From: Rhizobacter sp. Root1221
Lineage (GTDB): Bacteria > Pseudomonadota > Gammaproteobacteria > Burkholderiales > Burkholderiaceae_C
Reading direction: 5' to 3'
Length of the DNA: 64,000 nucleotides
Assembly: GCF_001425785.1 (NCBI RefSeq)
Contig: NZ_LMDI01000017.1
Location: forward strand, 5,723 to 69,722
Positions 7,401-44,608 of the stretch are shown piece by piece. A program made the position numbers and the translations under genes. The notes under the pieces are model-generated. The model was not told where the DNA came from. It did no database searches and saw nothing but the letters and a program-made list of their open reading frames with translations. Numbering within the stretch: the stretch's first letter is position 1; every line of letters starts with the position of its first letter.

Positions 7401-10400
7401 TGTCTTCCACCGGCGGCCAGACCGGGGTCACCGTGTCCAGCACACGCTGGCGCGGGCCTTCCGGGGTGCGTTCGATCACGGTGCGCAGGGCGGCCTGGCG
7501 TTCCACCACCTGCCGGAACGCGCGCTGGAATGCGGCCACGTCGAGCGGGCCGCTCAGGCGGTGGCCCGAAGGCAGCTGGTTGAACGGCGTGCCCGGGGTC
7601 ATGTTCTCGAGGAACCACAGGCGGTGCTGCATCAGCGACAGCGGGGCCAGGCGTTGTTCGGGCCGGGCCTTCACGCGCAAGGCCTGCACGGGCTGGGCAC
7701 CGGCTGCCGGGGTGCCCAGCGCTGCGGCGAGGCCGCGGGGCGTGGCGTGCTCGAACAAGGTGCGCAACGACGGCCGTGTGCCCACCAGCGCACCGATGCG
7801 CGAAGCAAGCTTGGCCGCCTGCAGCGAGTGGCCGCCCAGCTCGAAGAAATGATCGTCCGGGCCCACGGATGGCACGCCGAGCACCTCGGCCATGGCCGAG
7901 GCCACCTGGGCCACCAGGTCGCCGGCGGCGGGTTGCGGCGCGGGCACGAGGGCAGCCACGGGTACGGGCGCGGCGCCGCCAGGGGCGGGGAGGCCCTTGC
8001 GGTCGATTTTGCCGTTGGGCAGCAGTGGCATCGCGGCGAGCACCACCAGGTGCTGCGGCACCATGTAGTCGGGCAGGCCGGCCTTCAGGGCCTGGCGCAG
8101 TGCGGCCGGGTCGGGTGCGGTGCCGGGCGCGGCCACCAGGTAACCGACCAGGCGCACGTCGCCCGGGCTGTCCTCGCGGGCCACGACCACGGTGCGGGCC
8201 ACACCGGGCAGCGCCTCGAGGCGGGCCTCGATTTCACCCAGTTCGATGCGGTAGCCGCGCACCTTGACCTGGAAGTCGAGCCGGCCGAGGTGGTGCAGCT
8301 GGCCGTCCTCACCCCAGCGGCCGAGGTCGCCCGTGCGGTACAGGCGCGCGCCGGGGGCGGTGCTGAACGGGTCGTCGACGAAACGGTCGGCGGTGAGTTC
8401 GGGGCGCTTGAAGTAGCCATTGGCCACGCCGGTGCCGCCGATGCAGATCTCGCCTTCGACGCCCACCGGGCACGGGTTCATGCGGCCATCCACCACCCAC
8501 ACTTGCGTGTTGGCAATGGGGCGGCCGATGGTGATGCGCTGCGCGGCGTCCGTGATGCGCGCCAGCGTGGACCACACCGTGGTTTCGGTGGGGCCGTACA
8601 TGTTCCACAGTTCGACCGGCGCGGCCAGCAGGCGCGCGGCCAGGGCCGGTGGCAGCGGTTCACCGCCACACAGCGCGCGAAAAGCCGCGGGCGCACGCCA
8701 GCCGGCGTCGAGCAGCAGGTGCCAGGTGGTGGGCGTGGCCTGCATCACGTTGATGCGTTCGGCGGTGATGAGCTGCGACAGCGCGTCGGCATCCATCGCG
8801 TCTTCACGCTGCGCGAGCACGACGGTGGCGCCGGCGGTGAGCGGCACGAACAGCTCGAGCACGGCGATGTCGAACGACAGCGTGGTGACGGCGAGCAGCC
8901 GGTCGCCGGCCTTCAGGCCGGGTTCGCGCTGCATGCTGGCGATGAAGTTGCACACCGCCTGCTGCGGTAGCACCACGCCCTTCGGCTTGCCGGTGGAGCC
9001 CGACGTGTAGATGACGTAGGCCGGGGCGTTTTCGGGGGCGTCGGCGGGTGCGGCCACCGGGGTGGCCGGTGCCGCGTCCAACAGCGCTGCGTCATCGTCC
9101 ACCCGCAGCTGCTGCGAACGCTGCAGGCCGGCCAGGTCGGCGTGGCGTCGTTCGGTGATGACGGTGTGCAGCGCGGCGTCCTCGGCCATGTACTGCAGGC
9201 GTTCCTTCGGGAAGCCGGGGTCGAGCGGCACGTAGGCGGCACCCGTCTTCAGCACGCCCAGCAGCGCGGGCAGGAGGTGGAGGCCACGGCCCAGGCACAC
9301 GCCCACCAGTGCACCGGCGCCTGCACCCCGTGCACGAAGCAGGTTTGCAAAGCGATTCGCGCGCTCATCGAGCGCGCGATACGTGAGGCTGCCGCCGGGG
9401 GCGACCACGGCGATGCTGTCCGGCGTTCGCTCGGCCTGGGCCGTGACCCAGCGTTCGAGCCGCGCACGGCCTTCGAGCGGCATGGGGGTTCGGTTCCACG
9501 CGAGCAGCCGCGGGTCCACCGGCACCGTGGCGCGGACCGGCGCGCTGCCGGCCGGGCCCACGAGGGCGGTGGCCCATGCGCGGCACTGGTCCATCAGGTC
9601 GTCGACCAGGTCCTGCGCGCGTTGCGGGCTGAAGAACTCGCTGCTGTGATGCAGGTCGAGGGTCAGCGCGTCGTCGGTTTCGTAGAAGTTGAAGAACAGC
9701 TCGCTCAACACACCGCGCTTGCGGCCTTCGAACATGGTGGCCTGCAACGGCGCCCAGCCCGACAGGTCCACCCGCGGGTTGAGGTTGAAGTAGATGCCGG
9801 TGAGCGGCGGGCGGCTGCCCACGCTGCGGATGCCGAGTGCGCGTGCCACGGTGCCCTGCGTCATCACCGGGTGTTCGAGCGCGTCCATCAGGTGGCTGCG
9901 CACGCGTTGCAGCACCCAGGTGGCGTCGTCAGAAGGCGCGCAGCGCAGGCGCAGCGGCAGGTCGAGCACGCCGTCGGCCAGCAGCGGGCCGCGGCGCTGC
10001 AGGCTCTGGCTGGCGTACGGGATGCTGACCACGAAGTCGTCCTGGCCGCTGCGGCGGTGCAGCACCACGGTGACCGCACTCAGCAGCACCTGGAACAGCG
10101 TGGCCGACTGCAGCTTGGCCTGGGCGCGCAGTCGGGCGAGGGCGTCGCCGTCGAGCCGCACGCGCACGGTGTCGGCGGCGAAGGTGCGCGCGCCGGTGGG
10201 CGTGCGGTCTCCCAACGACAACGGCGCCGGGGCGCCGCGGAGGTGTTCGGTCCAGAAGGCCAGCGCCTCCTGGCCGTCGGGCCCGGCGAAGCGGGCCTGT
10301 TCCTCGGTGCCGAAGGCGAGGGGGGATTCGGCGGGCTTGAACGCCGGCACGAGGCCGGTTGCGCGGGCGCGGTATGCCTCGGCGAGTTCGGCGTTGAACA

Positions 10401-13400
10401 CACTCGAGGCCCAGCCGTCGAACACGAGGTGGCTGGCCACTACGTGCACCACGGTGCGCCCGTTGGCCAGGTCGACGAGGCTCACCGCGGCCAGCGGGGC
10501 GCGGTCCACGGGGAAGTCGCGGAGGCTGGCCTCGCTGCAGAACGTGTCGAGTGCGGCGTCGGCGTCGGGTTGCGCGCGGAGGTCCACCTCGACGACAGGG
10601 ATAGCCGCGGCCGCGGCCAGGTGCTGCACGGGGTCTTCGAGGCCGAACTGCACGCGGAAGGCGTCATGGCGGCCCAGCACGTCTTGCAGGGCCAGCTTCA
10701 ACGCGGGGCGGTTCACGGCGCCGCCAAGCGTCACGCAGAACGATTCGTTCAGCGCGCGGCGGGCGGACGGGTCGAAGCTGCCGGCGAGCCAGCGTTCGGT
10801 CTGGCCCGGGGTGAGCGGGGCATCGGTACCACGGGCGGGTTTGTCGCCAGGGCCTTTCGGGGCCGGGCCGCCGTCGCGCGGCACGATGAACCCGAGGGCC
10901 ATCAGTTCGTCGAGGGCGTCGGTGAAGACCGTGAAGATGCGGTCGGTGACCGCGTCGTCCATCGCTTCGGTGACGAAGTGGCCGAACTGTTCGTACAGGT
11001 GCAGCCCGTGGAAGCGCACGAGGTAATAGAAGAGGCTGACGAACTTCTGGTTGTCGTCCCAGGCGAGGCGCCACAGTGATGCGCAGTGCACGGCCTGCAC
11101 CGGCGCACCGCGCACGGCGAACGCGTTGTTCAGGCGGTCGACCAGGCGCTGCGTGCGGTCGTTGATGTTCTGGTAGAACGCGCGGCCGCCGGCCTGGATG
11201 TGGCGCAGCGTGGCACGTGCCGCGGCGAGCGCGAGCGGGTGGCGCACGAAGGTGCCGGCGAAGTACGTGACTCCGGCCTCGGGATACGACTCGTCGCCGT
11301 ATTGCCAATGGCCGCCGTCGAGTGCATCGAGCCAGCGGTCGGCGCCGGCGATGGCCGCGAACGGCAGCCCGCCGCCGATGATCTTGCCGTAGGTGGCGAT
11401 GTCGGCGCGCACGCCATAGAACTCCTGTGCACCGCCCGGGGCCACGCGGAAACCGGTGACCACTTCGTCGAAGATCAGCGCGCAACCGGCGCCGTCGGCG
11501 ATCTCGCGCAGCGAACGCACGAAGTCGCGCGGCTGCAGCGTGGGGTACTTGTTCTGGATGGGCTCCGTCATGATGGCGGCCAGCTCCGGCCCGCGCTCAC
11601 GCAACACCCGCAGCGAGTCTTCGCTGTTCCAGTCGAGCACGAGGATGTTCTCGACGGCGTTGGCCAGGATGCCCGGCGCGGCCGACAGCGACCGCAGCTG
11701 CTTCGTGCCACGCACGATCACTTCGTCGAAGATGCCGTGGTACGAGTTGGTGAAGATCGCGATGGTCTTGCGGCCGGTCACCGTGCGGGCGATGCGCATG
11801 GCCCCCATCACGGCTTCCGAGCCGGTGTTGCAGAACGCCACGCGCTGCATGCCGGTGAACTCGGAGATCAGCTGGGCCACCTCGGCGGCCACCGGGTGCT
11901 GCGGACCCACCTCGATGCCACGGTCGAGCTGCTCGTGCATGGCGGCCACCACGGCCGGCGGCTGGTAGCCGAGCAGGTTGGCGCCGAAGCCGGACAGCAG
12001 GTCGATGTACTCGTTGCCGTCGATGTCCCACAGCTTGGCGCCGTTCGAGCGGTCGACGACGATGGGGTAGACCAGGTCCTTCCACAGGGGGTTGAAACCG
12101 GTCACGACCCGCGGGTCGGCCATCACCTTGCGGTGCTGCTGGCTGAACGTCTTCGACTGGCCCGAGCGGCCCGTGTAGCGCACGATGAAGTCGTCGAGCC
12201 ACTGCTGCTGCGCCGGCGTGAAGGTGCGCACGGCCTCGAGCGTGAGGCGCGGGGACGCACCGAAGGGCTTGTCGACGAGCGACTGGCGTGCCGGGGTATC
12301 GATCACGGCGGCCTCGGCGGCCGGGGCCGGTTGGGGCGCGGCCACCGGTGCGGGCAAGGCGGGCGCGGCAGCCTGCACCGCGGGCGCCGGCAACACGGGT
12401 TGCCCGGCCAGCAAGGCCAGCTGCTGGGCCATCAGCTGCATCTGCTGCTGGATCAGCTGGTGCAACGCGTTGCCATCGGCGGCCACGGCCACCGGGGCGA
12501 AGGTGACGGGCGCGGCGGTGGCCACCGGGGCAGCCACGGCCGCGACCGCCGCGACAGGGGCTGCAGCCTGCGGTGCCGGGGCAAAGCGATCTGCCGGCAG
12601 TTCGGTGTCGAGGAACCGCGCGAGCTTGCCGATGTCGTTGAGGTCTTCCAGCAGGCGGCGGAACCGCAGCTTCACGCCGAACACCCGCTCCAGTTCGAGC
12701 GTGGCCTGCGTGAGGGACAGGGAATCGAGCCCCTGGTCCACGAAGGTGCTGTCGCGGGCAATGTCGTCGGCGGGCACCCCCGAGACATCGCTGAGGATGC
12801 GCTGGAGTTCCTGTTCGAGGCGGGGCAGTCGGGTCATGGCGACGATCGATGAAGCGGTAGGGGCGGACTCGGTGCGCAACGCGGCAGCCGTTGCGGGCAC
12901 GAGGTCGTTCGGGGTGGACATGGCCTGGCGCTTGAACCAGTGGCGTTCGTCCTTGAAGGGGTAGGCGGGCAGTGCCACGCGCGGGGCGTTCGCGGCCACG
13001 GGCCAGTTGACCCGGGCGCCCAGGGCCCACAGCGCGCCGGCGGCGGCGAGCACCGAGGCCGCCGGGTCACCGGGGTTGTTGGCCGGGCCCAGCAGCGCCA
13101 CCTGGCGCGGCACGGCACCGGCCGCGGTGCGGTGCTGGCGCAGCAACGCGGTGAGGGCCTGGCCGGGGCCTACCTCGACGAACACGGTGTCGCCGGTGCG
13201 GCCCAGCTCGGCCGACACCGCACGCGTGAACTGCACCGTGGCACGCACCTGGCGGGCCCAGTAGGCGGGGTCCACGGCCTCGTCGGCCGTCAGCAGCGCG
13301 CCGCTGACACACGAATAGAGCGCGCGTTTCGGGGCCTGCAGGTGGGCGCCAGCGAGCGCACGGCTCACGAGCGGCAGCGCGCCGTCCATGGTTGCGCTGT

Positions 13401-16400
13401 GGAAGGCGTGGGACACCCGCAGGCGCGTGGTGCCCAGGTCGCGGGCTTCGAGCAGCGGGGCGAGGGCGTCGATGGCCTCGGTGCTGCCGGCCACCACGGT
13501 GAGCGTGGGTGCGTTGTTGCCGGCGATCTCGACACCGGCCGGCAGCAGCGGCTGCAGCGTGGTGGCGTCGGTGCGCACGGCGAGCATGGCGCCACGCGGT
13601 TGCGCGAACATGGCCTGGCCGCGGGCCAGCACGGCGGCCGTGGCATCTTCGAGCGACATCACGCCGGCATGGCACGCCGCGGCATATTCGCCGATGCTGT
13701 GGCCGATCATGGCATCGGGTTCGAGCCCCAGGCTGTCGAGCCAGGCGGCCAGGGCGTACGACACGGCGAACAGCGCGGGCTGGGCGTGGCGTGTCTCGGC
13801 GAGCTGGCGGGCCACGGCTTCGTCGGCCGGATCGGCATCGACCAGCCAGCTGCGCAGCGGCACACCGAGGGCCGCTTCAGCGAGCGCCAGGGCGCGGTCG
13901 AACGGTTCGCGGAACGCGGGCGCCTCGGCGCACAGGTGGCGGGCCATGCCGGGGTGCTGGGACCCCTGGCCGGGGAACAGGAACACCACACGCGGCGATG
14001 CGAGCGACGTGACCGATGCCTTCAGCGCACGCAAGGCGGCCACGGCCTCGGCGAGGCTGGCGGCCACGACGGCCTGGCGCTGGGCCATGGGCTTGCGGCC
14101 ACGCACCAGCGTGGCGGCCACGGCCGACAACGGCAGCGCGGGGTGGCGTTCGAGGTGGTTGGCCAGCAGCTGGGCACGGGCCGCCACGCCGTCGGCGTCG
14201 CGGGCCGACAGCGGCAGCACCCAGCGGCCGCCTTCCACCGTGGGGACGGCCGCCGGCAGCGGGGCTTCCTCGACCACGACGTGTGCGTTGGTGCCGCCCA
14301 CGCCGAACGAGCTGACCGCGGCGCGGCGCGGCGTGGTGGCATCGCGGGGCCACGGTGTGTTCTCGGCGATCACGCGGAACGGCGACGTGCCGAAGTCGAT
14401 CTGCGGATTCGGGCGGCGGTAGTGCAGCGTGCCGGGGATCACGCCATGGTGAAGCGACAACGCGGCCTTGATGAGCCCGGCCGCGCCGGCCGCGGCCACC
14501 ATGTGGCCGAGGTTGCTCTTGAGCGAACCGAGGCCGCAGTAGGCGGCGTCGGGGGTGTCCTCGCGGTAGGCGCGGGTGAGCGCGGCCACCTCGATGGGGT
14601 CGCCGAGCGACGTGCCGGTGCCGTGGGCCTCGACGTAACCGATGCTGCGGGCGTCCACGCCCGCGTGGTCGAGGGCCATGCGGATGGCTTCGGCCTGGCC
14701 GGTGACACTCGGGGCGGTGAAGCTGGCCTTGTCGCCGCCGTCGTTGTTCAGGCCCACGCCGCGCACGACGGCGTACACCGTGTCGCCATCGGCCTGGGCG
14801 TCTTCGAGGCGCTTGAGCACCACCACCGCGCCGCCGCTCGCGAACACGGTGCCGGTGGCGTCGGCGTCGAACGGGCGGCAGTGCCCGTCGGCCGATTCCA
14901 TGCCACCTTCGACGTGCAGGTAGCCGTTCTGCTGTGGCACGTTGACCGTGGTGCCGCCGGCGATGGCCACGTCGCACTGGCCGGCCGCGAGGGCGTGCCA
15001 GGCCTGGGCAATGGCCACGAGGCCGGTGGAGCAGGCGGTGTGAACGCTGACCGCCGGGCCGTTGAGGTTCAGGCGGTGGGCCACGCGGGTGGCCACGTAG
15101 TCCTTCTCGCTCGCGAGCATGGTGGCGAAGTCGCCGTAGCGGTGGGCGAGGTCGGGGTCTTCCTGGCGCAGCGCGGTGATGTAGTTGTTGTTCGCCGTGC
15201 CGGCGTACACGCCGATGCGCTGGCCGCCGCGCGATGGGTCCACCGCCGCGTGTTCGAGCGCCGTCCAGCTCAGTTCGAGCATCAGGCGCTGCTGCGGATC
15301 GATGACGGTGGCTTCGCGGGCCGACAGGCCAAAGAAGCCCGCGTCGAACCGGTCGGCGTCGTCGAGCACGCCGCGCGCCGCCACGAAGTTGGGGCGGCTG
15401 CGCAGGTCTTGCGGCACCGAGGCGTCGAGTTCGTGCGGGGCGAAGTGGCGGATGCCCTCGCGGCCGGCGAGCAGGTTTTCCCAGAAACCGTCCACGTCGG
15501 ACGCACCCGGGGTGCGTGCAGCCATGCCGATGATGGCGATGCCGGCCGTGGGGCCCGCGGCCGCGCGGCGGCGGCTGGTGCCGGCCTGGCGCCGGACCGT
15601 GAGGCCGGCGAGCGTGGGGCGGTCGTACACGTCGGCCACGCCGATGTGGGTCACGCCTGCATCCTTGAGCTGCGACACGAACCGCAGCACGAGCAGCGAG
15701 CGCGCGCCCAGGTCGAACAGGTTCTGGTCGTCGCCGATGGCGGAGAGGCCGAGCAGGTCCTGCCAGAGGGCGCGGCACAGCGCGGGCACGTCGGACGGAT
15801 CGGTGGCGCGGGCCGAGGCCACCGCCGGCACGGGCAGTGCGCGGCGGTCGATCTTGCCGCTCGGGGTGGTGGGCAGGGTGTCGAGGGTGACGAACCGCAC
15901 CGGCACCATGTACTCGGGCAGCCGGCCGCGCAGGTGCGCGCGCAGGCCCGCGGCCGCGCCATCGGCCGACTGGCCGGCGTTCAGCACGAGGTAGGCCACC
16001 AGCTGCTTGCCGATGCCGGGGATGTCGGGTGCGGTGACGACCGCGTCGCGCACGGCCTCGTGGGCCATCAGGGCGAGTTCGATCTCGCCCGGTTCGATGC
16101 GGAAACCATCGACCTTGAGCTGATGGTCGGCGCGGCCCAGGTACGTGCACACGCCGTCGGCATCGCGGCGCACCAGGTCACCGGTGCGGTACCAGCGGCC
16201 CGGGATGCCGGGCACGTCGGTGCGGAAGCGGTCTGCGGTGAGCTCGGGCTGGCCGAGGTAGCCGTGGGCCAGCGTGTCGCCGCCGAGCAGCAGCTCGCCG
16301 GTGTCGCCGGTGGCGGGCTGGCCGGATTCGGTGTCGTGCAGCGCGAGGGCCACGTGCGGCAGTGCGCGGCCGATGGGCGGGATCTCGGGCCACGTGCGGG

Positions 16401-17355
16401 CGTCGCCTTCGAGCTCGAAGGCGGTGACCACGTGGCTCTCGGTGGGGCCGTAGTGGTTGTGCAGGGCGGCGCCGGGCAGCCGTTCGAACAGGCGGCGGAT
16501 GGCCGGCGTGACTTGCAGCTGCTCGCCGGCGCTGATCACGTCGACCAGGTGCGCGGGGGCCTCGGCGGCGGCGGCCTGGGCGATCATCTGCAGCGCCACG
16601 TATGGCAGGAAGATGCGCGCGATGCGGTGGTCCACGAGCGCGCGGTGCAGCAGCGCCGGGTCGCGGCGCACGGCCTCGGGCACCATCACCAGCGTGCCGC
16701 CGCAGGCGAGCGTGGCGAAGATTTCCTGGAAATGCACGTCGAACGACAACGGTGCGAACAGCAGCGTGCGTGCGGGCTGGCCGAGGCGCGGATGGGCCAC
16801 GTGCCAGTCGGTGAGGTGGGCGAGCGGGGTGGCGCCCATGGCCACGCCCTTCGGGCGGCCGGTGGAGCCTGACGTGAACAGCACGTAGGTGAGGTCGGAC
16901 TCGGCGGCGTGCACCGGCGCGGAGGCGGGTGCGGGCGCGGCCAGCGTGGGGAAGCTGCCGGCCACGCGCGCCAGGTCGGCCAGGGCGCTGTCTTCGCCGA
17001 GCACCGCGCGAGGCCGTGCATCTTCGAGCATGGCGTGCAGGCGGTCGGCCGGGTACGCCAGGTCGAGGGGCACGTACGCGAGGCCGGCATCCACCACGGC
17101 GAGGATGGCGACGATGGTGTCCACCGACCGGGTGGCCGCGATGCCGATGCGGTCGCCGGGGGTGAAACCGGCGGCCGACAGGCGGGCCGACAGCACCTGC
17201 GTGCGGGCCAGCAATTCGGCGTAGCTGAGCGACACCGTGGGCGTTTCGAGCGCCAGCGCGCCGGGCACGCGGCCAGCCGTGTCGTGCAGCACGGCGCGCA
17301 GGGCGCGGGGGGCAGGGATGGCCGGATCGGACAGGGTGGGGCGGCGTTCGTTCAT
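4411..17355 (-). CDS. Hybrid NRPS-PKS megasynthase: A-PCP-KS-AT-ACP-AMT-C-A-PCP-C-A-PCP
   Basis: 4314 residues. Approximate domains: adenylation A1 10-520; PCP1 525-590 (LGARSL, Ser about 555); ketosynthase 600-1030 (TACSTG cysteine about 773, EAHGTGT and KSNLGH histidines); acyltransferase 1120-1420 (GHSIGE; HAFHS indicates malonyl-CoA); ACP 1510-1585 (GLDSLS); Ala/Pro linker with a Gln-rich helix 1590-1730; class III aminotransferase 1730-2155 (PLP lysine in YGKIIGGGLP about 1990); C1 2175-2600; A2 2630-3110; PCP2 about 3175 (LGGHSL); C2 3230-3660 (HHLVWDG); A3 3690-4170; PCP3 about 4237. By-eye pocket codes are DVQFIAHVVK for A1 (proline-like) and DILQCGMVWK and DILQIGMVWK for A2 and A3 (glycine-like). 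There is no KR, DH, epimerase or thioesterase. The inferred chain is prolyl-(beta-amino acid)-Gly-Gly. The aminotransferase placement matches mycosubtilin/iturin synthases. The start is the first ATG in a good context; the open frame continues upstream through non-coding DNA. Confidence 0.93.
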   Translation of the reverse strand: MNERRPTLSDPAIPAPRALRAVLHDTAGRVPGALALETPTVSLSYAELLARTQVLSARLSAAGFTPGDRIGIAATRSVDTIVAILAVVDAGLAYVPLDLAYPADRLHAMLEDARPRAVLGEDSALADLARVAGSFPTLAAPAPASAPVHAAESDLTYVLFTSGSTGRPKGVAMGATPLAHLTDWHVAHPRLGQPARTLLFAPLSFDVHFQEIFATLACGGTLVMVPEAVRRDPALLHRALVDHRIARIFLPYVALQMIAQAAAAEAPAHLVDVISAGEQLQVTPAIRRLFERLPGAALHNHYGPTESHVVTAFELEGDARTWPEIPPIGRALPHVALALHDTESGQPATGDTGELLLGGDTLAHGYLGQPELTADRFRTDVPGIPGRWYRTGDLVRRDADGVCTYLGRADHQLKVDGFRIEPGEIELALMAHEAVRDAVVTAPDIPGIGKQLVAYLVLNAGQSADGAAAGLRAHLRGRLPEYMVPVRFVTLDTLPTTPSGKIDRRALPVPAVASARATDPSDVPALCRALWQDLLGLSAIGDDQNLFDLGARSLLVLRFVSQLKDAGVTHIGVADVYDRPTLAGLTVRRQAGTSRRRAAAGPTAGIAIIGMAARTPGASDVDGFWENLLAGREGIRHFAPHELDASVPQDLRSRPNFVAARGVLDDADRFDAGFFGLSAREATVIDPQQRLMLELSWTALEHAAVDPSRGGQRIGVYAGTANNNYITALRQEDPDLAHRYGDFATMLASEKDYVATRVAHRLNLNGPAVSVHTACSTGLVAIAQAWHALAAGQCDVAIAGGTTVNVPQQNGYLHVEGGMESADGHCRPFDADATGTVFASGGAVVVLKRLEDAQADGDTVYAVVRGVGLNNDGGDKASFTAPSVTGQAEAIRMALDHAGVDARSIGYVEAHGTGTSLGDPIEVAALTRAYREDTPDAAYCGLGSLKSNLGHMVAAAGAAGLIKAALSLHHGVIPGTLHYRRPNPQIDFGTSPFRVIAENTPWPRDATTPRRAAVSSFGVGGTNAHVVVEEAPLPAAVPTVEGGRWVLPLSARDADGVAARAQLLANHLERHPALPLSAVAATLVRGRKPMAQRQAVVAASLAEAVAALRALKASVTSLASPRVVFLFPGQGSQHPGMARHLCAEAPAFREPFDRALALAEAALGVPLRSWLVDADPADEAVARQLAETRHAQPALFAVSYALAAWLDSLGLEPDAMIGHSIGEYAAACHAGVMSLEDATAAVLARGQAMFAQPRGAMLAVRTDATTLQPLLPAGVEIAGNNAPTLTVVAGSTEAIDALAPLLEARDLGTTRLRVSHAFHSATMDGALPLVSRALAGAHLQAPKRALYSCVSGALLTADEAVDPAYWARQVRATVQFTRAVSAELGRTGDTVFVEVGPGQALTALLRQHRTAAGAVPRQVALLGPANNPGDPAASVLAAAGALWALGARVNWPVAANAPRVALPAYPFKDERHWFKRQAMSTPNDLVPATAAALRTESAPTASSIVAMTRLPRLEQELQRILSDVSGVPADDIARDSTFVDQGLDSLSLTQATLELERVFGVKLRFRRLLEDLNDIGKLARFLDTELPADRFAPAPQAAAPVAAVAAVAAPVATAAPVTFAPVAVAADGNALHQLIQQQMQLMAQQLALLAGQPVLPAPAVQAAAPALPAPVAAPQPAPAAEAAVIDTPARQSLVDKPFGASPRLTLEAVRTFTPAQQQWLDDFIVRYTGRSGQSKTFSQQHRKVMADPRVVTGFNPLWKDLVYPIVVDRSNGAKLWDIDGNEYIDLLSGFGANLLGYQPPAVVAAMHEQLDRGIEVGPQHPVAAEVAQLISEFTGMQRVAFCNTGSEAVMGAMRIARTVTGRKTIAIFTNSYHGIFDEVIVRGTKQLRSLSAAPGILANAVENILVLDWNSEDSLRVLRERGPELAAIMTEPIQNKYPTLQPRDFVRSLREIADGAGCALIFDEVVTGFRVAPGGAQEFYGVRADIATYGKIIGGGLPFAAIAGADRWLDALDGGHWQYGDESYPEAGVTYFAGTFVRHPLALAAARATLRHIQAGGRAFYQNINDRTQRLVDRLNNAFAVRGAPVQAVHCASLWRLAWDDNQKFVSLFYYLVRFHGLHLYEQFGHFVTEAMDDAVTDRIFTVFTDALDELMALGFIVPRDGGPAPKGPGDKPARGTDAPLTPGQTERWLAGSFDPSARRALNESFCVTLGGAVNRPALKLALQDVLGRHDAFRVQFGLEDPVQHLAAAAAIPVVEVDLRAQPDADAALDTFCSEASLRDFPVDRAPLAAVSLVDLANGRTVVHVVASHLVFDGWASSVFNAELAEAYRARATGLVPAFKPAESPLAFGTEEQARFAGPDGQEALAFWTEHLRGAPAPLSLGDRTPTGARTFAADTVRVRLDGDALARLRAQAKLQSATLFQVLLSAVTVVLHRRSGQDDFVVSIPYASQSLQRRGPLLADGVLDLPLRLRCAPSDDATWVLQRVRSHLMDALEHPVMTQGTVARALGIRSVGSRPPLTGIYFNLNPRVDLSGWAPLQATMFEGRKRGVLSELFFNFYETDDALTLDLHHSSEFFSPQRAQDLVDDLMDQCRAWATALVGPAGSAPVRATVPVDPRLLAWNRTPMPLEGRARLERWVTAQAERTPDSIAVVAPGGSLTYRALDERANRFANLLRARGAGAGALVGVCLGRGLHLLPALLGVLKTGAAYVPLDPGFPKERLQYMAEDAALHTVITERRHADLAGLQRSQQLRVDDDAALLDAAPATPVAAPADAPENAPAYVIYTSGSTGKPKGVVLPQQAVCNFIASMQREPGLKAGDRLLAVTTLSFDIAVLELFVPLTAGATVVLAQREDAMDADALSQLITAERINVMQATPTTWHLLLDAGWRAPAAFRALCGGEPLPPALAARLLAAPVELWNMYGPTETTVWSTLARITDAAQRITIGRPIANTQVWVVDGRMNPCPVGVEGEICIGGTGVANGYFKRPELTADRFVDDPFSTAPGARLYRTGDLGRWGEDGQLHHLGRLDFQVKVRGYRIELGEIEARLEALPGVARTVVVAREDSPGDVRLVGYLVAAPGTAPDPAALRQALKAGLPDYMVPQHLVVLAAMPLLPNGKIDRKGLPAPGGAAPVPVAALVPAPQPAAGDLVAQVASAMAEVLGVPSVGPDDHFFELGGHSLQAAKLASRIGALVGTRPSLRTLFEHATPRGLAAALGTPAAGAQPVQALRVKARPEQRLAPLSLMQHRLWFLENMTPGTPFNQLPSGHRLSGPLDVAAFQRAFRQVVERQAALRTVIERTPEGPRQRVLDTVTPVWPPVEDMRALPAAERDAAVRERIRGLTLVPMDLERGPLFHVHLFQTGDLEHVLFFMVHHLVWDGSSFDVLYRDLAALYPAAAEGRTPAIEPLAVSYGDYAESQREWMQGEELTRQVANWREVLTPLPESLDLPTDRARPVEMTGDGRSCQALLPPDLVLSLQQLARRQGVTLSTVMLSAYALQLHRMSGQNDFAIATPVRGREQAELEPVAGFFVNALPLRMRPQGTVGFDRWLHQVQDTVGIAFASPDVPFEHLVQALGVARDTSRPMVAQVLYSYQDVRERPVQWGPIGHKRFDIDLRGSSHDLSLYCVELSAGLECALTFNTDVFDEGTVHHFLLRLEHLLRQIVAAPATALADFKLATPGEQAAIDAWNATAAPFDLDTTVHARIAAAAAAHAHSVAITQPGFGSISHGELDVRANRLAHLLRSRGVGRGDLVGLCIDRGVDMVVTQLAILKAGAAYVPLDPAYPADRLAYMAEDAKLALLVTESALVQSIDWPRARSVLVDIDAMAITGQPETEPVADPERDARPTDAAYVIYTSGSTGKPKGVMVPHRAVVNFLDSMAREPGLTASDRLVAVTTLSFDIAVLELLLPLAVGAEVVLASRDTALDSQALRALVESTGATVMQATPSTWRMLIESGWQGTPTFKALIGGEGLPADLADQLIARTGALWNMYGPTETTVWSTCCQVTSTERGISIGRPIANTQVHILDDRLQPVPLGIPGELWIGGDGVTLGYLHRPELTAERFVDDPFRPGATMYRTGDRGRWRHDGQLEHLGRLDFQVKVRGYRIELGEIESNLATHPQVARSLVIVREDQPGDVRLVAYVVARGEAPAADALREHLRAGLPEYMLPQHVVFLDAIPLLPNGKTNRHALPAPAAQVGGTADRAIVAPRNEAESVVVDIWKSLLGVQHISITDNFFDLGGHSLLAMRAVIELEKRLGVRLNVRRLIFETLTQIASSATPAEPELATAGAPAATPATPVRASEPKGLWGRLMGAFRSGS

Positions 17356-17540
17356 GACAGGGGGTGGCGCGCGGCCATCCTGAAGGGAGGGAGTAAGCGC
17401 GGAATCACCCCGCGGGATGACGCCGTGCGGCCCCCATTCATGGGAGGGCCCCTGGACGTGTGCCGTGTCGCCTCGGGTGTGGCTGGCGCTCTGGTGGGTC
17501 ACACGGGCTCTGATTTGTTTCCGATTATGTCGAGGGGGGT

Positions 17541-17556
17541 GGGGATGCAAATCCCC
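17541..17556. promoter_or_regulatory. Palindrome in the divergent megasynthase/SGNH intergenic region
   Basis: GGGGATGCAAATCCCC is a perfect inverted repeat (6-base arms, 4-base centre). It is the clearest element in the 252 bases between the divergent megasynthase start (17355) and the SGNH hydrolase start (17608). On the minus strand it lies just upstream of a possible -10 (CATAAT, about 17524-17529) for the megasynthase, so it could be an operator. The spacing to any -35 is poor and the promoter is only a candidate. I see nothing else in this gap. Confidence 0.35.
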
Positions 17557-17607
17557 CGAATGCGTGAGTGTGGCGGGGGGGGTGATGGCCGACACTCCGA
17601 CCCTGAC

Positions 17608-18669
17608 ATGCGAGCCTCCCCACTTACATCGCGCTGGCGCAACGCGCTGGCCGCCGTCCTGATGAGCTTGCCTGCGCTCGTGCCGGCCGCCCCACCGGCC
17701 GACCGCATCCCGCTCGCCGTCATCGGCGATTCCGACAGCCACGGGTACCACGACGACCGGGCGTTCCCGCCCGGTTCGCCCGAGCGCGGCGGGCGCCTGC
17801 GCGACACCACCTACCAGTGGACCGAAGCCGTCGCCGCCTTGCGCGGGCAGGCCTTCGACCTGGGTGAACGCGAGGTCACCGGCACCTGGGGGCGTGCGGC
17901 AAAGGTGCTGCGGATGGTGGGCATCGACGCCCGGGCCCCTCGCAAGCTGGACCACCGGTACAACTTCGCGGCGTCGGGGCAGGGCTGTGACGACCTGATG
18001 GGCGGCACGTCCCGGCAGGTGCCCGAGCTGATCCGGCTGATGAATGAAGACCCTGCGCGCTGGCGGCGTGGCGTCGTGGTGATCCGCATCGGGGTCAATA
18101 CCTTCGGCAAGGCCGGCGAACTCGACCGCCTCGCCCGCGACCCGCGCGATCCCGAGGTCGTGCGGGACATCGACACCTGCGTGGCGCAGATCCGCACGGC
18201 GGTGGATGCCATTGGCGCGGTTCACCCGGCCACCCGGGTGGTCGTGGTGGGCATCTTCGACAACCGCCACTGGGCCTCGTACCTGACCCGCTGGCGGCAG
18301 CCGGCCGACCAGACCAACATCTCGGCTGGGCTGGACCGGTTCGACCAGGCGCTGCAGCGGTTGGCGTCCGACCGCCCGCAGGTCGCGTTTTTCGATGACC
18401 GGGCCTGGTTCGCGTCGCTGTGGGGTGGACGCGACGCCCAGGGCGTGCCGGCCTACCGCACGGTGGCGTTCGGGCCGCTGAAGGTCTCGAACTCGGCCGG
18501 CGACGAGCCGTTCCATGCCACGCTCGCCGATGGCCATGCCGGCACCGTCTGGAACGTGTTGTGGGCCCAGTCCCTTGTCGACCTGCTCAACCGGCGCTTC
18601 GCACTTGGTGTGGCGCCGCTCGCCGAGGCCGAGATGGTGCCGCTGCTCACCCGCCGGTTCAGCCCCTGA
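17608..18669 (+). CDS. Secreted SGNH/GDSL-type hydrolase
   Basis: 353 residues with an N-terminal signal peptide (basic start, hydrophobic stretch to about residue 28, VPAAPP cleavage region), so periplasmic or secreted. The SGNH blocks are visible: GDS at residues 40-42 (block I), an SGQG segment (block II-like), RIGVN near residue 160 (block III) and DGHAG near residue 310 (block V, catalytic His). Family members remove or transfer acetyl and other acyl groups on polysaccharides or lipids. It is divergent from the megasynthase and 15 kb from the polysaccharide sugar genes, so acyl editing of an extracellular polymer is a reasonable guess, not shown. No strong ribosome-binding site precedes the ATG. 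Confidence 0.75.
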   Translation: MRASPLTSRWRNALAAVLMSLPALVPAAPPADRIPLAVIGDSDSHGYHDDRAFPPGSPERGGRLRDTTYQWTEAVAALRGQAFDLGEREVTGTWGRAAKVLRMVGIDARAPRKLDHRYNFAASGQGCDDLMGGTSRQVPELIRLMNEDPARWRRGVVVIRIGVNTFGKAGELDRLARDPRDPEVVRDIDTCVAQIRTAVDAIGAVHPATRVVVVGIFDNRHWASYLTRWRQPADQTNISAGLDRFDQALQRLASDRPQVAFFDDRAWFASLWGGRDAQGVPAYRTVAFGPLKVSNSAGDEPFHATLADGHAGTVWNVLWAQSLVDLLNRRFALGVAPLAEAEMVPLLTRRFSP

Positions 18670-18838
18670 CAGGGAGCCTGGCAGAGGCAACGCGGGCCTT
18701 TCCCGGTTGGCAAGCGCGGCCGCTCAAGGCCCGGTGGCGGAAAGGGCCTTGGTTGCCCCCGGCGGCCAGGGCGGTCAGTCTCGGGGCCCCACGAGCACGG
18801 CCCCGGTACTTCCCGTGCGCCCTTTCCGGAGCCTGACC

Positions 18839-22829: not shown

Positions 22830-23153
22830 GTAGCCCGACGGTGGCATTGACCCTTGGGAAGGCGATCCGGGACTATGCTGCCTGAAACCACGGAGAGATC
22901 ACTTGCTCAACACCACGCTCAAACCCGCCCTTACCTGAATTCGCTCATGACAGCTGGAGCGAACCTCGAACTGCCGTACAACGATCTGGCGCCTCGTGCC
23001 AACGACAGGGTGATCGCGGCCTTGGAGCTTGCGAAGCACGCGAAGGAAACCCAGCGGCACCTCAAATTCGTTGCGATCAGTGCAGGCACGTCGCGAATCA
23101 AGTACCTTGCCGAGGCAGGTGCCGGGTACGTCACCTTCTCCCTCATGTACTGA
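22830..23153 (+). repeat. Duplicated segment, copy 1 (orphan gene plus its upstream region)
   Basis: This stretch aligns base for base with 44231-44554. The match is near-complete from CGATCCGGGACTATGCTGCC (22863) to the TACTGA stop and continues at lower identity through a shared TTG[A/G]CC upstream. Homology stops at the stop codon. The duplicated unit is therefore one gene with its promoter region. No target duplications or transposase are visible at either copy. Confidence 0.85.
22903..23153 (+). pseudogene. Frameshifted copy of an 82-residue orphan gene
   Basis: Aligned to the intact copy at 44306-44554, this one starts at the equivalent TTG (22903, preceded by GGAGAG) but carries two extra bases (CT) near codon 9. 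Translation from that start therefore hits TGA after a dozen codons. The rest of the frame is open and nearly identical in protein sequence to the intact copy (LMTAGANLELPYNDLAP.., ending YVTFSLMY). An alternative start at 22875 (ATG) would bypass the lesion and give a chimeric N-terminus, so expression is not excluded. Function unknown. Most substitutions are silent or conservative, so the lesion looks recent. Confidence 0.7.
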
Positions 23154-23358: not shown

Positions 23359-26300
23359 TTACTCGAATGACTGGTCGCGGGCCCTATCTTCCACCGCCTC
23401 ACGGGCGCGCTCGCGATCGATACATGCGGCGAACTGGGGTGCGATATTGGTGGCCCACCCGGCGATCTCCGCCTTCGAATGCAGCTTGAGGACTTCGATC
23501 AACGGCGCTCGCGTTGCGAGGGTGTCGGCAAGCGAGCCGCTCCAGCCACTCGGCCGAAAGCGCAGAAGGAATGCATCCAGAACCTTTGCGGGCTCCGGTG
23601 CGACATCGATAAGCCTTGCAGCCGCGGGCGACCAGCCTTTGGCGTGATCTTCGTCGCCCGCATTCGAGAACCGCAGCACCCGCGCAAGAAGCTCGTAACG
23701 GGTCTCCGGTTTCTGTGCTGCCCACGCCATCCACACGTCCTCCTGCACGGCATCGAGCGGACAGGCGCGATAGCCCCTGATGTCCTGAAAGAGAGTTCGC
23801 CCGAGGCCGTCCTCGCCGACCGCCTGCTCAACGAGCATGTCGAGGACGATATGCGGAAACGTCTTCGTTAGCGCTGCAATGATCTCGGCTACGTCCCACG
23901 CATAGACCCTCCGGCTTCCGATTGGCTCGCTGATCCGAGCGCAGAAAGCGCGCGCTTGATCCTCATACTCCGGCTTGTCGAACGCCACTTCGATCACTTC
24001 GCCGATCATGTGATCGAGATGCGCCCCCTCCTCTAGTTCGACTCTGGCCAGGAACTCCCTGCCCGTGGCCTTCAGTGATTCACTGATGGGCAGCTTGTCA
24101 GAACGCCTTCCGAAGACACGCATTCCCAGGATCTCCGCAGCAACGCGATTCCCGCCGTCCCGGCGAATGATCCCCTGCAGCAATAGGCGCAGTTGCTCAT
24201 CATCCAGCCCTTCGTGGGCCCGCCCATTCGCGAGCAAATGAAAGCTGAAAATCGGCACGGTATCGATTGCCAGCGCCCTCATCATCCGTTCAAAGGCTTT
24301 GCCATTGAGGCCTGCGCATGCCTGCCAATTGAGAAGATAGGAATGAAGACGCGAGTCGAACAGCACCTCATCGAGGAGACTTTCGGTTTCGCCCGATGAG
24401 CGGACCATCGCCGAGGTCAGAAAACCGGCGAGCAATTGCGCCTTCCGGTTGCCTTCCGGGAGCCTGAGAAACTCATCCCGTAGGCGGCTCCAGCACTCCG
24501 CTAGTGAGAGGCAGCCCGTAGCCAAGCCTCGCCCGAGCTCGAAAGTTTTCGGCGAATCGGCGGCGACGATCTCAGGAAGCAATGCGGCGAACTGCTGGTC
24601 GTTCCCGACGAGCTGCTGACCGAGTTCGGCGCACAGATCATGGATCTTCTGCCGTGCTTCAAGCGGCTTAAGCGCCGTCTCCTCAATAAGGTCGGCGATT
24701 TCGAGAGCGCTCCATTCTGGCGTGAGCGCATGAGAGCGAATCATCCCGGCAAGATTGCCAGGACGAAGACGCTGCTCCAACTCTTCCAGCTCCTTGAATG
24801 CGGCTTCGGCGAACTTGCCCTTGCCCCGTCTCATGGCGTTGCGAACGCCGATCCAACCTTCCGGCCAACCACTGTCTCCCGTGAAGGCCGTTGCTAGGGC
24901 GATCACTTCATTGAGCATGCCGGCACGCAGAAGGTCCGCGACATGGTTCGCCATCATCCGTCGAACACGGTCCGACAATCCACCTCCGGAAGTGCCTACG
25001 GCACGTGCCAACTCGATGACCTGCGCGTACCAATCCCGTACCTGAGTGACATCTTCCGGGTGAAAGCCGAAGTCGCGTTTCCAAGCGCCGAACTCAAATG
25101 AGTAGTGCGAGGAGAAGTGCGACGTCTTGAGCATTTCTGCCAAGAGCGTGAGGCCGATTTCCTGTTCGGCCGCGACGCCTTCAAGTAGCGATTTGATGAA
25201 CGCCGTCCGCTGAGCAGCGCTCGCATACGTCCCCGACAAGTACAGCCAGAAGAGCGACTTGAGAGGTTCGACTGCGGAGTGATGTTTTCCCAGGGGCTCG
25301 TTCAGAACAAATCTTTGTAGCAAGCTCGCGCTGCGCCCGAACAGATCCGAACCATAGGCAAGGGATCGAAGGACCCGGAGAATCTGGGCCTTGTTGTCAT
25401 TCTCATCGTCGAAGAACCAGTCTTCACTTTTTGCCGCCGCCTCTTCGATGAAGGAGAGTGTTGCGGCTGGACTAACCGGAGCAATGTTCTCGAAGATTTC
25501 CACGCCCAAGGTGTTGAGCTTGCCGAGATGATCCAAGAGGCCTCCGGTCGCAAACCATTTCGCGGCCAACGCAACGGCACGCTCATCGTCATGAAGGTAG
25601 CCGATGCGACGGGAGAACGAGCGCAGCATTCGGGCCGATGACCCGGTGACGATCGCGTTTTCAATGCGCTGCAACGGAACATCTTCGAACGCACGCTTGG
25701 CCAGCCTGTTGGCCAAGGCGTGGGGAAGAATCGCTCGCCACTGGCTTCGTTTCTGGACGAGTTGTCGGCGGTGAAGCTCAGCGACATGCTTGTGGAGTTG
25801 GTCCACCGTTTGCCCCGCAAGCTTTGCCAGGGACACAAGCTCGGAGTTGTCGCCCTCCAGCGTCTCTCCGTCGAATGAATAGAGCAACGCGCAAGCTTTG
25901 GCAGCGTCAAGGAGTTCTGCGCTGGTCGCCTTCTGCTGCCGGAACAGGCGCTCGAACAGGTCTGTGTCATTCAGCTTGGACAGCGACTCGCCGTTCTTTG
26001 CCGTCTCCGCCAGCGCGAAGGCAACGCGCGAGTTTCCTTCGGAGAATCTCGCGATCACGTGGCGGCTGGGCGAGGCGATAGCCGGACAGCGGATGTCAAG
26101 CATCTTCTCGATGAGGTCAGGCGACGCGGGCTCTAGCTTGAAGACGTCTGTATTCGGCGGCTCGTCGTCAATGATGTCGTATTCGACGGTAATAACGCTA
26201 AGCAGGCAGTCGGAGTTCCCAACCTTCGCCGCCAGCTTCCGATGCAGTTCTATGCCACAGTTGTCAACAATCAGAACGACCCTGTGGCCCATGCTGATCA

Positions 26301-27165
26301 GCCTCGATAGCATCTCCTGAGGGACGGGATCGGGTTCATCTGAAATGTCGGTATAAAGGGCATCGGACCGAGGCAGCGCCTCCGTTCCGATCCGATCGTC
26401 GAATAGCGCCTGGATGAGGCGTGTCTTGCCGACACCGGACAGGCCAACGAGACGGACAACGCCCTTGGGTTTGACGAGGATGCCGCGAAGCATCGCCAGC
26501 GCCTGCTCAGCGGTCAGCCCATCCACATCCTTGATTGACGGGCCAACGAGCCGGATTTTCGCGTCCAGCAAGTACGACGTATCCACGGGCGCCGGCGAAC
26601 TAGACCAGTCTTCAAATGGGCGCCAACCGGAGAGGGGAAGCCCAAGTTTTTCGCGTACCCACGGCACCAGTCCGGCATGCTGGTTCACCCATGAGGCAAT
26701 GCGGCGGCGGTCATAGAAATCGAGCGTCAGCGACGAGGCAGAAGGAAGCCCCCTTAGCGCTTCCGCCATCGCGGCCTTCCGGCTCCTCAGGGACGTATCG
26801 GAAAGCGAACCCTGTGAGCTGACGATGATGTAGGCCCCACCATTCGCCGCCAGCTCAATGATTCTGGGAAGGACAGCACCTCCCGGGGCCATCTCCTGAA
26901 GGATCGCTCCGCGCGGCATGTCCTGGGCTTTGACCTGGAAACCAGTCGCTGCCTTGGGGACATAACCCGCGATCGCCGCGCCAGCCAAAAGCGCCACCCG
27001 TACGTCAATCCCGCCATCAGCTGCGTTCTGATGCCCGCCCCACGTCACTGCGGACGCAGCATGTCCATGCGACCGCATTTCACGCTCGCAAAGATAGCCC
27101 ACCAATGTCCGCAGGTCTGTGTCGTTCAGCTGCGCGAGCTGCTCGCCAGTGACTTCAAGAATCAT
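23359..27165 (-). CDS. Avs-like protein: Mrr-type nuclease + STAND NTPase + helical C-terminus
   Basis: 1268 residues. The N-terminal about 170 residues form a PD-(D/E)XK nuclease of Mrr type: DGGIDV (Asp54) and FQVKAQ (Gln77-x-Lys79), with an upstream glutamate helix (CEREM). A P-loop NTPase follows: Walker A GLSGVGKT (241-248), Walker B VVLIVDNC (Asp301). Residues from about 400 to 1268 are predominantly helical and repeat-like, without a named motif. Effector-NTPase-helical sensor is the layout of Avs antiviral STAND proteins, where the C-terminus recognises a phage protein and oligomerisation activates the nuclease. That role is inferred from architecture. The gene stands alone and is visibly less GC-rich, with different codon use from its neighbours, as expected of a transferred defence gene. 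The start ATG has only a weak ribosome-binding site. Confidence 0.85.
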   Translation of the reverse strand: MILEVTGEQLAQLNDTDLRTLVGYLCEREMRSHGHAASAVTWGGHQNAADGGIDVRVALLAGAAIAGYVPKAATGFQVKAQDMPRGAILQEMAPGGAVLPRIIELAANGGAYIIVSSQGSLSDTSLRSRKAAMAEALRGLPSASSLTLDFYDRRRIASWVNQHAGLVPWVREKLGLPLSGWRPFEDWSSSPAPVDTSYLLDAKIRLVGPSIKDVDGLTAEQALAMLRGILVKPKGVVRLVGLSGVGKTRLIQALFDDRIGTEALPRSDALYTDISDEPDPVPQEMLSRLISMGHRVVLIVDNCGIELHRKLAAKVGNSDCLLSVITVEYDIIDDEPPNTDVFKLEPASPDLIEKMLDIRCPAIASPSRHVIARFSEGNSRVAFALAETAKNGESLSKLNDTDLFERLFRQQKATSAELLDAAKACALLYSFDGETLEGDNSELVSLAKLAGQTVDQLHKHVAELHRRQLVQKRSQWRAILPHALANRLAKRAFEDVPLQRIENAIVTGSSARMLRSFSRRIGYLHDDERAVALAAKWFATGGLLDHLGKLNTLGVEIFENIAPVSPAATLSFIEEAAAKSEDWFFDDENDNKAQILRVLRSLAYGSDLFGRSASLLQRFVLNEPLGKHHSAVEPLKSLFWLYLSGTYASAAQRTAFIKSLLEGVAAEQEIGLTLLAEMLKTSHFSSHYSFEFGAWKRDFGFHPEDVTQVRDWYAQVIELARAVGTSGGGLSDRVRRMMANHVADLLRAGMLNEVIALATAFTGDSGWPEGWIGVRNAMRRGKGKFAEAAFKELEELEQRLRPGNLAGMIRSHALTPEWSALEIADLIEETALKPLEARQKIHDLCAELGQQLVGNDQQFAALLPEIVAADSPKTFELGRGLATGCLSLAECWSRLRDEFLRLPEGNRKAQLLAGFLTSAMVRSSGETESLLDEVLFDSRLHSYLLNWQACAGLNGKAFERMMRALAIDTVPIFSFHLLANGRAHEGLDDEQLRLLLQGIIRRDGGNRVAAEILGMRVFGRRSDKLPISESLKATGREFLARVELEEGAHLDHMIGEVIEVAFDKPEYEDQARAFCARISEPIGSRRVYAWDVAEIIAALTKTFPHIVLDMLVEQAVGEDGLGRTLFQDIRGYRACPLDAVQEDVWMAWAAQKPETRYELLARVLRFSNAGDEDHAKGWSPAAARLIDVAPEPAKVLDAFLLRFRPSGWSGSLADTLATRAPLIEVLKLHSKAEIAGWATNIAPQFAACIDRERAREAVEDRARDQSFE

Positions 27166-27208: not shown

Positions 27209-27321
27209 GGCGCGGAGCAAGCGCAGCGAAGCGACAGATCAAGCCACCCGCGAGGACCGACTCTGCCGGTCGACCCGGGGCCGCCCCTTCGGGGGCAGGA
27301 GGCGAGAGCCGACTGGGGGGC
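27209..27321 (-). repeat. Dispersed intergenic repeat, copy A
   Basis: Read on the minus strand this begins 4 bases after the galE stop with GCCCCCCAGTCG and includes a GCCCCCGAAGGGGC hairpin and TCCTCGCGGGTGGCTTGAT. It matches 55214-55322 on the plus strand over about 110 bases with scattered mismatches and small indels. Both copies start right after a stop codon and carry the same hairpin, suggesting an extragenic repeat of the REP/terminator kind. Confidence 0.75.
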
Positions 27322-27325
27322 TTAG

Positions 27326-28336
27326 TCAGAATCCATCCGGGTTCTGGCTCTGCCAACGCCAGGAGTCCGCGCACATGTCGGCCAACCCTCGCGACGCGGA
27401 CCAACCGAGCACCGCCTTCGCGCGGCCCGGGTCGGCGTAACACGCGGCCACGTCGCCGGGCCGGCGGGCCACGATCTGGTGGGCCACCGGGCGGCCGCTG
27501 GCGGTTTCGAACGCCTTGATGACGTCGAGCACGCTGTAGCCCTGGCCGGTGCCGAGGTTCACGGTGACGGATTCGTTGCGGTCGAGCAGGTGGCGCACGG
27601 CGGCGACGTGGCCGTCGGCGAGGTCCATCACGTGGATGTAGTCGCGCACGCCGGTGCCGTCCGGGGTGTCGTAGTCGCCGCCGAACACCTGCAGGAACGG
27701 GCGCTTGCCCACTGCCACTTGCGTGACGTACGGCATCAGGTTGTTCGGGATGCCACGCGGGTCTTCGCCGATCTGGCCGCTGGGGTGCGCGCCCACCGGG
27801 TTGAAGTACCGCAGGTAGGCCACCTTCCACGCCGGGGTGCAGCGTTCGAGTTCGCGCAGCAGTTCCTCGCCCATCAACTTGGTGGTGCCGTAGGGGCTGG
27901 TGGCGGCGAGGGGGGACGTTTCGGTGATGGGCAGCGTTTCCGGCTGGCCGTACACGGTGGCCGATGAGCTGAACACGATCTTGAAGACACCGTGGTCTTG
28001 CATCGACTGGGCCACGTTGACGAGGCCGCCGAGGTTGTTGCGGTAGTAGGCGAGCGGGATCTGGGTGGACTCGCCCACCGCCTTGAAAGCGGCGAAATGG
28101 ACGACGGCATCGATGGCGTGGGTGGCGAACACTGCATCCATCGCGGCCTTGTCGGTGACGTCGGCTTCGACGAACACGGGGGTGAAACCGCCGAGCGCGG
28201 CGAGGCGGTCGAGGACACGGGGTGAGCTGTTGGCGAAGTTGTCGACACCGACGACGTCGAAGCCAGCGGCGGCGAGTGCCAGCCAGGTGTGGGAAGCGAT
28301 GTAGCCGGTGGCACCGGTGAGCAGGATGCGAGCCAT
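27326..28336 (-). CDS. galE: UDP-glucose 4-epimerase
   Basis: 336 residues, the usual GalE length. Interconverts UDP-glucose and UDP-galactose using bound NAD. The nucleotide motif reads GATGYIASH (GalE usually has GYIGSH), followed by DNFANS. The catalytic Ser is in SSSATVYG and Tyr/Lys in YGTTK. NPVGAHPSGQIGEDP and the long PNNLMPYVTQVAVG segment are diagnostic of GalE rather than other epimerases. It supplies galactose units for lipopolysaccharide or exopolysaccharide. It is monocistronic here: a dispersed repeat and the STAND gene follow, and ubiJ diverges upstream. Confidence 0.95.
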   Translation of the reverse strand: MARILLTGATGYIASHTWLALAAAGFDVVGVDNFANSSPRVLDRLAALGGFTPVFVEADVTDKAAMDAVFATHAIDAVVHFAAFKAVGESTQIPLAYYRNNLGGLVNVAQSMQDHGVFKIVFSSSATVYGQPETLPITETSPLAATSPYGTTKLMGEELLRELERCTPAWKVAYLRYFNPVGAHPSGQIGEDPRGIPNNLMPYVTQVAVGKRPFLQVFGGDYDTPDGTGVRDYIHVMDLADGHVAAVRHLLDRNESVTVNLGTGQGYSVLDVIKAFETASGRPVAHQIVARRPGDVAACYADPGRAKAVLGWSASRGLADMCADSWRWQSQNPDGF

Positions 28337-44230: not shown

Positions 44231-44554
44231 GTTAGCTCCACGGCGACATTGGCCCCATGGAAATCGATCCGGGACTATGCTGCCTGAACACCACGGAGAG
44301 ATCACTTGATCAACACCACGTTCAAACCCGCCTACCTGAATTCGCTCATGACAGCCGGAGCGAACCTCGAACTTCCGTACAACGATTTGGCGCCTCATGC
44401 CAACGACCGGATGACCGCGGCCTTGGAGCTTGCGAAACACGCGAAGGAAACCCAGCGGCACCTCAAGTTCGTCGGGATCAGTGCAGGCACGTCGGGAATC
44501 AAGCACCTTGCCGAGGAAGGTGCCGGGTACGTCACCTTCTCGCTCGTGTACTGA
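44231..44554 (+). repeat. Duplicated segment, copy 2 (orphan gene plus its upstream region)
   Basis: The counterpart of 22830-23153. The most conserved part begins at 44265 and runs to the stop codon. Upstream similarity includes a TTG[A/G]CC element and TATGCT that could form a weak promoter, although their 21-base spacing is long. The two copies are about 21.4 kb apart in the same orientation. Confidence 0.85.
44306..44554 (+). CDS. Orphan protein of 82 residues, intact copy of the duplicated gene
   Basis: The TTG start at 44306 is supported by GGAGAG 5 bases upstream and by conservation of both features in the broken copy. The protein begins MINTTFKPAYLNSLMTAGAN, has a charged central helix (ALELAKHAKETQRHLKF) and ends GAGYVTFSLVY. 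No signal peptide or membrane segment, and I recognise no family. Comparison with the other copy shows mainly silent and conservative changes, so it has been under selection. The C-terminal aromatic Tyr is conserved. Its neighbours (SRPBCC protein, acylphosphatase) give no clue. Confidence 0.65.
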   Translation: MINTTFKPAYLNSLMTAGANLELPYNDLAPHANDRMTAALELAKHAKETQRHLKFVGISAGTSGIKHLAEEGAGYVTFSLVY

Positions 44555-44608
44555 TCAGGGCGTCCCGCGCCCCTTGTTCATTCATCGATCTGCAACGGAA
44601 TAGCGCGC

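Follow-up and report, generated by a model that had tools for sequence, protein, structure and literature searches.

The window analysed here, a stretch of 64,000 nucleotides from Rhizobacter sp. Root1221, contains a long gene of unusual composition, and the question it raises is whether its product is an antiviral sensor and, if so, of which kind. The original prediction saw in it a stand-alone, horizontally acquired nuclease-NTPase of the Avs type with a helical C-terminus of no recognisable group. The reading preferred here, held with good though not full confidence, is that the gene product, a member of the PD-lambda-4 A family, is probably a one-protein phage sensor of the NLR/Avs kind, a horizontally acquired nuclease that infection would trigger.

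Regarding the gene itself, the open reading frame proved real and intact, with no internal stop in the reading of the window's frames, and its strand, which had been left unspecified, is the minus (Table 1). Its GC content is indeed lower than that of its surroundings: 0.599, with a GC3 of 0.694, against 0.676-0.717 and 0.880-0.935, respectively, for seven neighbouring genes. Its nearest relatives, two copies from betaproteobacterial MAGs, reach 75 and 82% identity in their best segments; in comparison with them, dN is 0.10-0.27 and dS 0.94-1.15, and the resulting ratio of about 0.11-0.24 argues for a real, selected gene, with residues 1085-1268 evolving fastest among the three stretches compared. 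By eye, no Shine-Dalgarno-like sequence stands directly before the ATG, a point that counts against the preferred reading.

Table 1. Features of the locus, in window positions
Feature	Position	Strand	Evidence
PD-lambda-4 A-like gene, 1268 aa	23359..27165	-	ATG at 27165, stop at 23359
Residues 1-180, predicted PD-(D/E)XK nuclease, DGGxD54 + Gln77-x-Lys79	26626..27165	-	motif conservation; model helix/strand order
Residues 190-400, STAND-type P-loop NTPase	25966..26598	-	alignment, structure model, structure searches
Residues 400-495, helical with WRAxLP, winged-helix-like (name inferred)	25681..25968	-	alignment, model
Residues 500-1230, HEAT/ARM-like alpha solenoid, presumed sensor	23476..25668	-	
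Residues 1232-1268, long C-terminal helix, conserved -FE end	23362..23472	-	alignment, model
Dispersed ~105-bp repeat copy, not part of the gene	27211..27322	+	
End of DNA synteny (galE side) with three same-genus genomes	27338..27338	.	

As for its family, the PADLOC model PD-Lambda-4_A (PDLC03991) matches the protein with an E value of 1.3e-289 and aligns residues 2-1268 with model positions 3-1283 of 1283; by sequence, the protein is a member of the PD-lambda-4 A family. In the library run, made without an Avs control, three PD-Lambda-4_A models were the only PADLOC families returned at E <= 1. The C-terminus, which had been considered unassignable, fits the model together with the rest of the protein, and a wholly new Avs group was rejected on the strength of this end-to-end match. 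In E. coli, the 1283-residue protein of locus L031 fits PD-Lambda-4_A with 2532 bits and is followed by a 303-residue gene fitting PD-Lambda-4_B. A table of one review (PMC10952713) classes PD-lambda-4 under P-loop NTPase and credits it to Vassallo et al. 2022; the string PD-lambda-4 has no occurrence in the main text of that study (PMC9519451), figures and supplements lying outside this count. Where passages of the open-licence literature give the name, it stands as a P-loop label or a list entry, with no mechanism attached.

The N-terminal domain is a predicted nuclease. Asp54, Gln77 and Lys79, found where the original prediction had placed them, are invariant in 13 of 13 full-length homologues, and Asp50, Gly51, Gly52, Asp54, Gln77 and Lys79 do not vary among 25 N-termini, two of which are at 16-18% identity. 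The order of strands and helices in residues 1-180, in the author's reading of the model of residues 1-600, fits a PD-(D/E)XK core. The further label of Mrr-type held in part: the Asp ... Gln-x-Lys active site of Mrr-type PD-(D/E)XK nucleases is present in all 25 N-termini, but none of these 25 family members matches a Pfam Mrr model at E <= 0.1 (one matches DUF4365), and an hhalign comparison with Mrr_cat proteins of relatives, taken from 12 of the 15 fetched loci, failed, with a probability of 0.47% against 0.06-1.31% for control segments.

The NTPase motifs follow, with GLSGVGKT at residues 241-248 and VVLIVDNC at 296-303, again as predicted, and with an invariant EYD at 328-330 and GN at 377-378; Gly241, Gly244, Gly246-Lys247-Thr248 and Asp301-Asn302-Cys303 are invariant in the 13 full-length homologues. 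The model of residues 1-600 has a pLDDT of 84.4 and a pTM of 0.80, and a Foldseek search of the PDB with it returned only STAND proteins in the first five rows, led by 6mfv (STAND-TPR, E 8.7e-8), then 8dgc (Avs3 with terminase, 4.2e-7), and then NLRP3 and Apaf-1. Alignment and Foldseek together give the hallmark of STAND proteins, an NLR-like NTPase fold that carries the P-loop and Walker-B motifs. No Pfam STAND, NACHT or NB-ARC model matched, AAA_22, AAA_16 and HTH_24 appearing below threshold at E <= 1, and at the level of sequence the link to NLRs is limited to the P-loop, which matches that of plant Roq1 weakly (E about 0.02). In VIA-align, generic AAA+ proteins tie with STAND proteins or slightly exceed them in Z, which, like the missing Pfam STAND and Mrr matches and the failed hhalign comparison, counts against the preferred reading; the ties with clamp loaders, Orc/Cdc6, NSF and Clp speak for an AAA+/STAND regulator or a DNA-repair protein with a nuclease domain, serving the host and not phage defence. 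The ordinary surroundings of the gene would suit such a protein as well; it is nevertheless quite improbable in view of the Foldseek order, the end-to-end match to a defence model, the sparse distribution of the family and its carriage by prophages, plasmids and an island.

To return to the reading as a phage sensor, the passages of PMC12931631 on STAND proteins describe them as effector-NTPase-sensor proteins and name terminase, portal or another protein of the phage as what triggers the Avs1-4 nucleases. The Avs (AVAST) plan in that wording, with an N-terminal effector, a central STAND NTPase and a C-terminal sensor, is present in the window protein as a prediction from the models, and the nuclease-STAND-sensor likeness to Avs proposed at the outset gains support from alignment, models and Foldseek. 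Since the protein fits this plan, it is read as a putative infection-triggered DNase and, by analogy, most likely works like an Avs sensor.

The C-terminal part is, as expected from the original prediction, all-helical in its structure model, which has the shape of a HEAT/ARM-like solenoid. In the 13-row alignment, the last 118 residues keep only three invariant positions, of which the final Phe-Glu makes up two. This terminal -FE (codons 1267-1268, window 23362-23367) is exact in 33 of 34 distinct loci, L009 ending in -FEY; in the 34, a model of the last 248 residues recognises the C-terminus at E <= 1e-3 and this end looks family-like. They include four nearly identical copies of the E. coli type and three tails of broken genes, and more than 10 lie outside the set from which the model was built. 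Beyond them, the distant L021, the only other row that matches this model, and the distant L024 end in -EREF, and the distant L091 has neither ending. That the tail is a latch or a docking end is a guess.

Modular sensors, in which the sensor would be swapped as a block, were also considered, and no such swap was seen among eight distant relatives (L018-L025). Models of residues 1-190 and 191-400 match all eight, and those of residues 470-770 and 771-1020 match six, the other two being short open frames; the model of residues 400-560 matches L022 only. With the last 248 residues, L021 gave a weak match (E 1.4e-4) and L024 none, these two being the only ones of the eight that reach the C-terminus in the fetched stretch. 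In the frames of L019, L020, L021 and L024, read from stop to stop, the nuclease domain begins roughly 100 or more residues in, and these proteins may have an extra N-terminal part.

Regarding the partner gene, the window gene stands alone, as had been proposed: PD-Lambda-4_B (PDLC03992) has no match in the whole genome at E <= 0.001, a tblastn search of the window with B gives no hit at E <= 0.01, and 10 other window ORFs have no PADLOC match at E <= 1e-5. The absence of an E. coli-type partner counts against the preferred reading, and it is one of two observations that favour a remnant, namely what is left of a two-gene PD-lambda-4 system after the loss of B, a half that has ceased to function. 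The other is the broken state of the two closest relatives, which likewise counts against a working sensor: L002, which lies near an integrase gene, is interrupted by a stop at codon 12 and by a frameshift near residue 950, and L003 is without about residues 402-1084, although assembly error is possible in both. A remnant is still unlikely, given that the frame is intact with the dN/dS ratio reported above, and that B is absent (tblastn, E <= 0.01) from 27 of the 31 family loci with at least 1 kb downstream, those without it falling in quick-tree branches far from E. coli; loci of this sample mostly lack B, and A alone is their usual form. The 31 loci were drawn from 43 rows with an A match, after leaving out seven repeats or window pieces (L001, L005, L013, L014, L015, L047 and L057) and five with short downstream sequence (L004, L016, L017, L039 and L046).

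The four loci with B (L028, L029, L031 and L038) share the E. coli type and are almost identical; the B frame is whole in L031 and split in two in the other three. A near-identity search of 5426 E. coli genomes found A in 151 (131 with at least 80% of A) and B in 149 (145 with at least 80%), the genome sets of A and B being counted separately. In L030 (7001-12613), an E. coli A without B is followed by an AbiP2-type reverse transcriptase gene.

The distribution of the family is sparse. In the set of relatives, 2 of 60 genomes match, the own genome and the same-genus G001, whose copy is only 35% identical and is grouped by a quick tree with L014 and L033, outside the trio of the window protein. 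Matches occur in 4 of 300 genomes of the order (two of them strong) and in 13 of 369 of the class (several weak or partial), the own genome included in both counts. Among plasmids, 40 of 72,556 records match, and 21 of these cover at least 80% of the protein; none of 50,697 phage records does, and a pattern-based scan of viral contigs yielded 15 loci. All 10 of the 10 flanking proteins compared with PHROGs, from nine homologue loci, were assigned to phage or integration families (terminase, tape measure and major tail, tail fibre, phage replication, Sak4 and integrase), the ten having been picked for their phage-like look and not as a random sample. Homologues are seen on prophages, on plasmids and on an integrase-bearing island. 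Plasmids and prophages being mutual competitors, this carriage would also suit a protein that senses plasmids or mobile DNA of another kind instead of phage proteins; such a target is very improbable, as the naming rule given in PMC9519451 implies that the PD-lambda-4 family was selected with lambda phage.

For the phage sensor preferred here, horizontal arrival is likely because the distribution is sparse and the relatives are mobile. The dispersed repeat beside the gene, which had been taken as a further sign of transfer, is real and was rejected as such evidence, for copies lie throughout the genome and across the genus: it has 43 matches at E <= 0.001 in the own genome, the own copy included, and its range is matched in at least 9 of the 10 other genomes in the genus, with none for G008 among the matches listed.

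The chromosomal setting is one of ordinary genes, and this counts against the preferred reading. By Pfam, the neighbours are NMT1, GGDEF, epimerase (galE), acyltransferase, SSF, DUF502, class-II tRNA-synthetase and cupin genes; UbiB-like, histidine-kinase, response-regulator and NRPS/PKS neighbours were labelled by eye. When the PADLOC threshold was relaxed to E <= 1 for the six nearer ORFs, the UbiB-like gene alone gave a match, a weak one (PD-T4-6, E 9.8e-5), and with the ten further ORFs negative in PADLOC at E <= 1e-5, no defence island was found around the gene. The refuting condition set with the original prediction, housekeeping surroundings instead of a defence island, holds for this copy, but its relatives occur in prophages, on plasmids and in the island with an integrase. 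Synteny with G010, G008 and G002 spans galE rightwards and stops at the break listed in Table 1; left of it, the fetched stretches, reaching about 6-12 kb past the break, have no long match to the window, and the ORFs there differ by eye between G010 and G008. This break, with no shared left flank, puts the gene at the edge of a variable region. Elsewhere in the window, one small gene occurs twice (22871-23153 and 44267-44555) with about 90% DNA identity; the second copy (44306-44554) encodes 82 aa with no Pfam match at E <= 1e-5, and the copy at 22.9 kb has indels near its start. A further copy of this small gene, at 79%, lies in G010. A minus-strand ORF at 4411-18690 encodes 4759 aa and looks NRPS/PKS-like by eye.

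The proposed mechanism would run as follows. In the resting cell, the STAND NTPase would hold the protein off; a phage component would bind the C-terminal solenoid, the NTPase would change state and the protein assemble, and the N-terminal PD-(D/E)XK domain would then cut DNA, so that phage growth is stopped or the cell is killed. The conserved -FE tail may serve in this switch as its latch or docking end, and the gene would have reached the genome by horizontal transfer. A wider proposal is tentative, with somewhat less than an even chance of being right: PD-lambda-4 A may form a separate branch of NLR-like phage sensors made of one protein (DNase-STAND-HEAT), normally independent of B, that recognise a phage feature unused by Avs1-5 and are gated by the free C-terminal -FE tail docking in the protein or on the ligand. 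PD-lambda-4 was already known as a defence system from E. coli; the new observations are the absence of B from this genome and most family loci, the mobile carriage of homologues and the nearly constant -FE end. If A is a sensor of the NLR/Avs type that bears a DNase end and usually lacks B, an obscure system becomes one in which direct sensing of phage can be tested, and the -FE end offers a two-residue mutation target.

Among known systems, protein A of PD-lambda-4 (Vassallo et al. 2022, PMC9519451) is a full-length relative and shares the nuclease motif, the P-loop, the helical C-terminus and the terminal -FE. The identity with the E. coli protein is about 31%, a low value that counts against the preferred reading, and the two also differ in that E. 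coli has B beside A, whereas the window gene has no B and sits in a chromosomal spot with no other detected defence gene. With Avs1-Avs4 (AVAST), the protein shares the effector-NTPase-sensor order, Avs3 being the second Foldseek match of its N-terminal 600 residues; it differs in the predicted HEAT/ARM-like solenoid and in matching PD-Lambda-4_A only, in the PADLOC run at E <= 1 that had no Avs control. Eukaryotic NLR/Apaf-1 proteins resemble it in the NTPase fold, with NLRP3, Apaf-1, CED-4, NOD2 and plant NRC1 among the structure matches; the sequence gives only the Roq1 P-loop match and no Pfam STAND model, and the N-terminal effector of the window protein, unlike theirs, is DNase-like.
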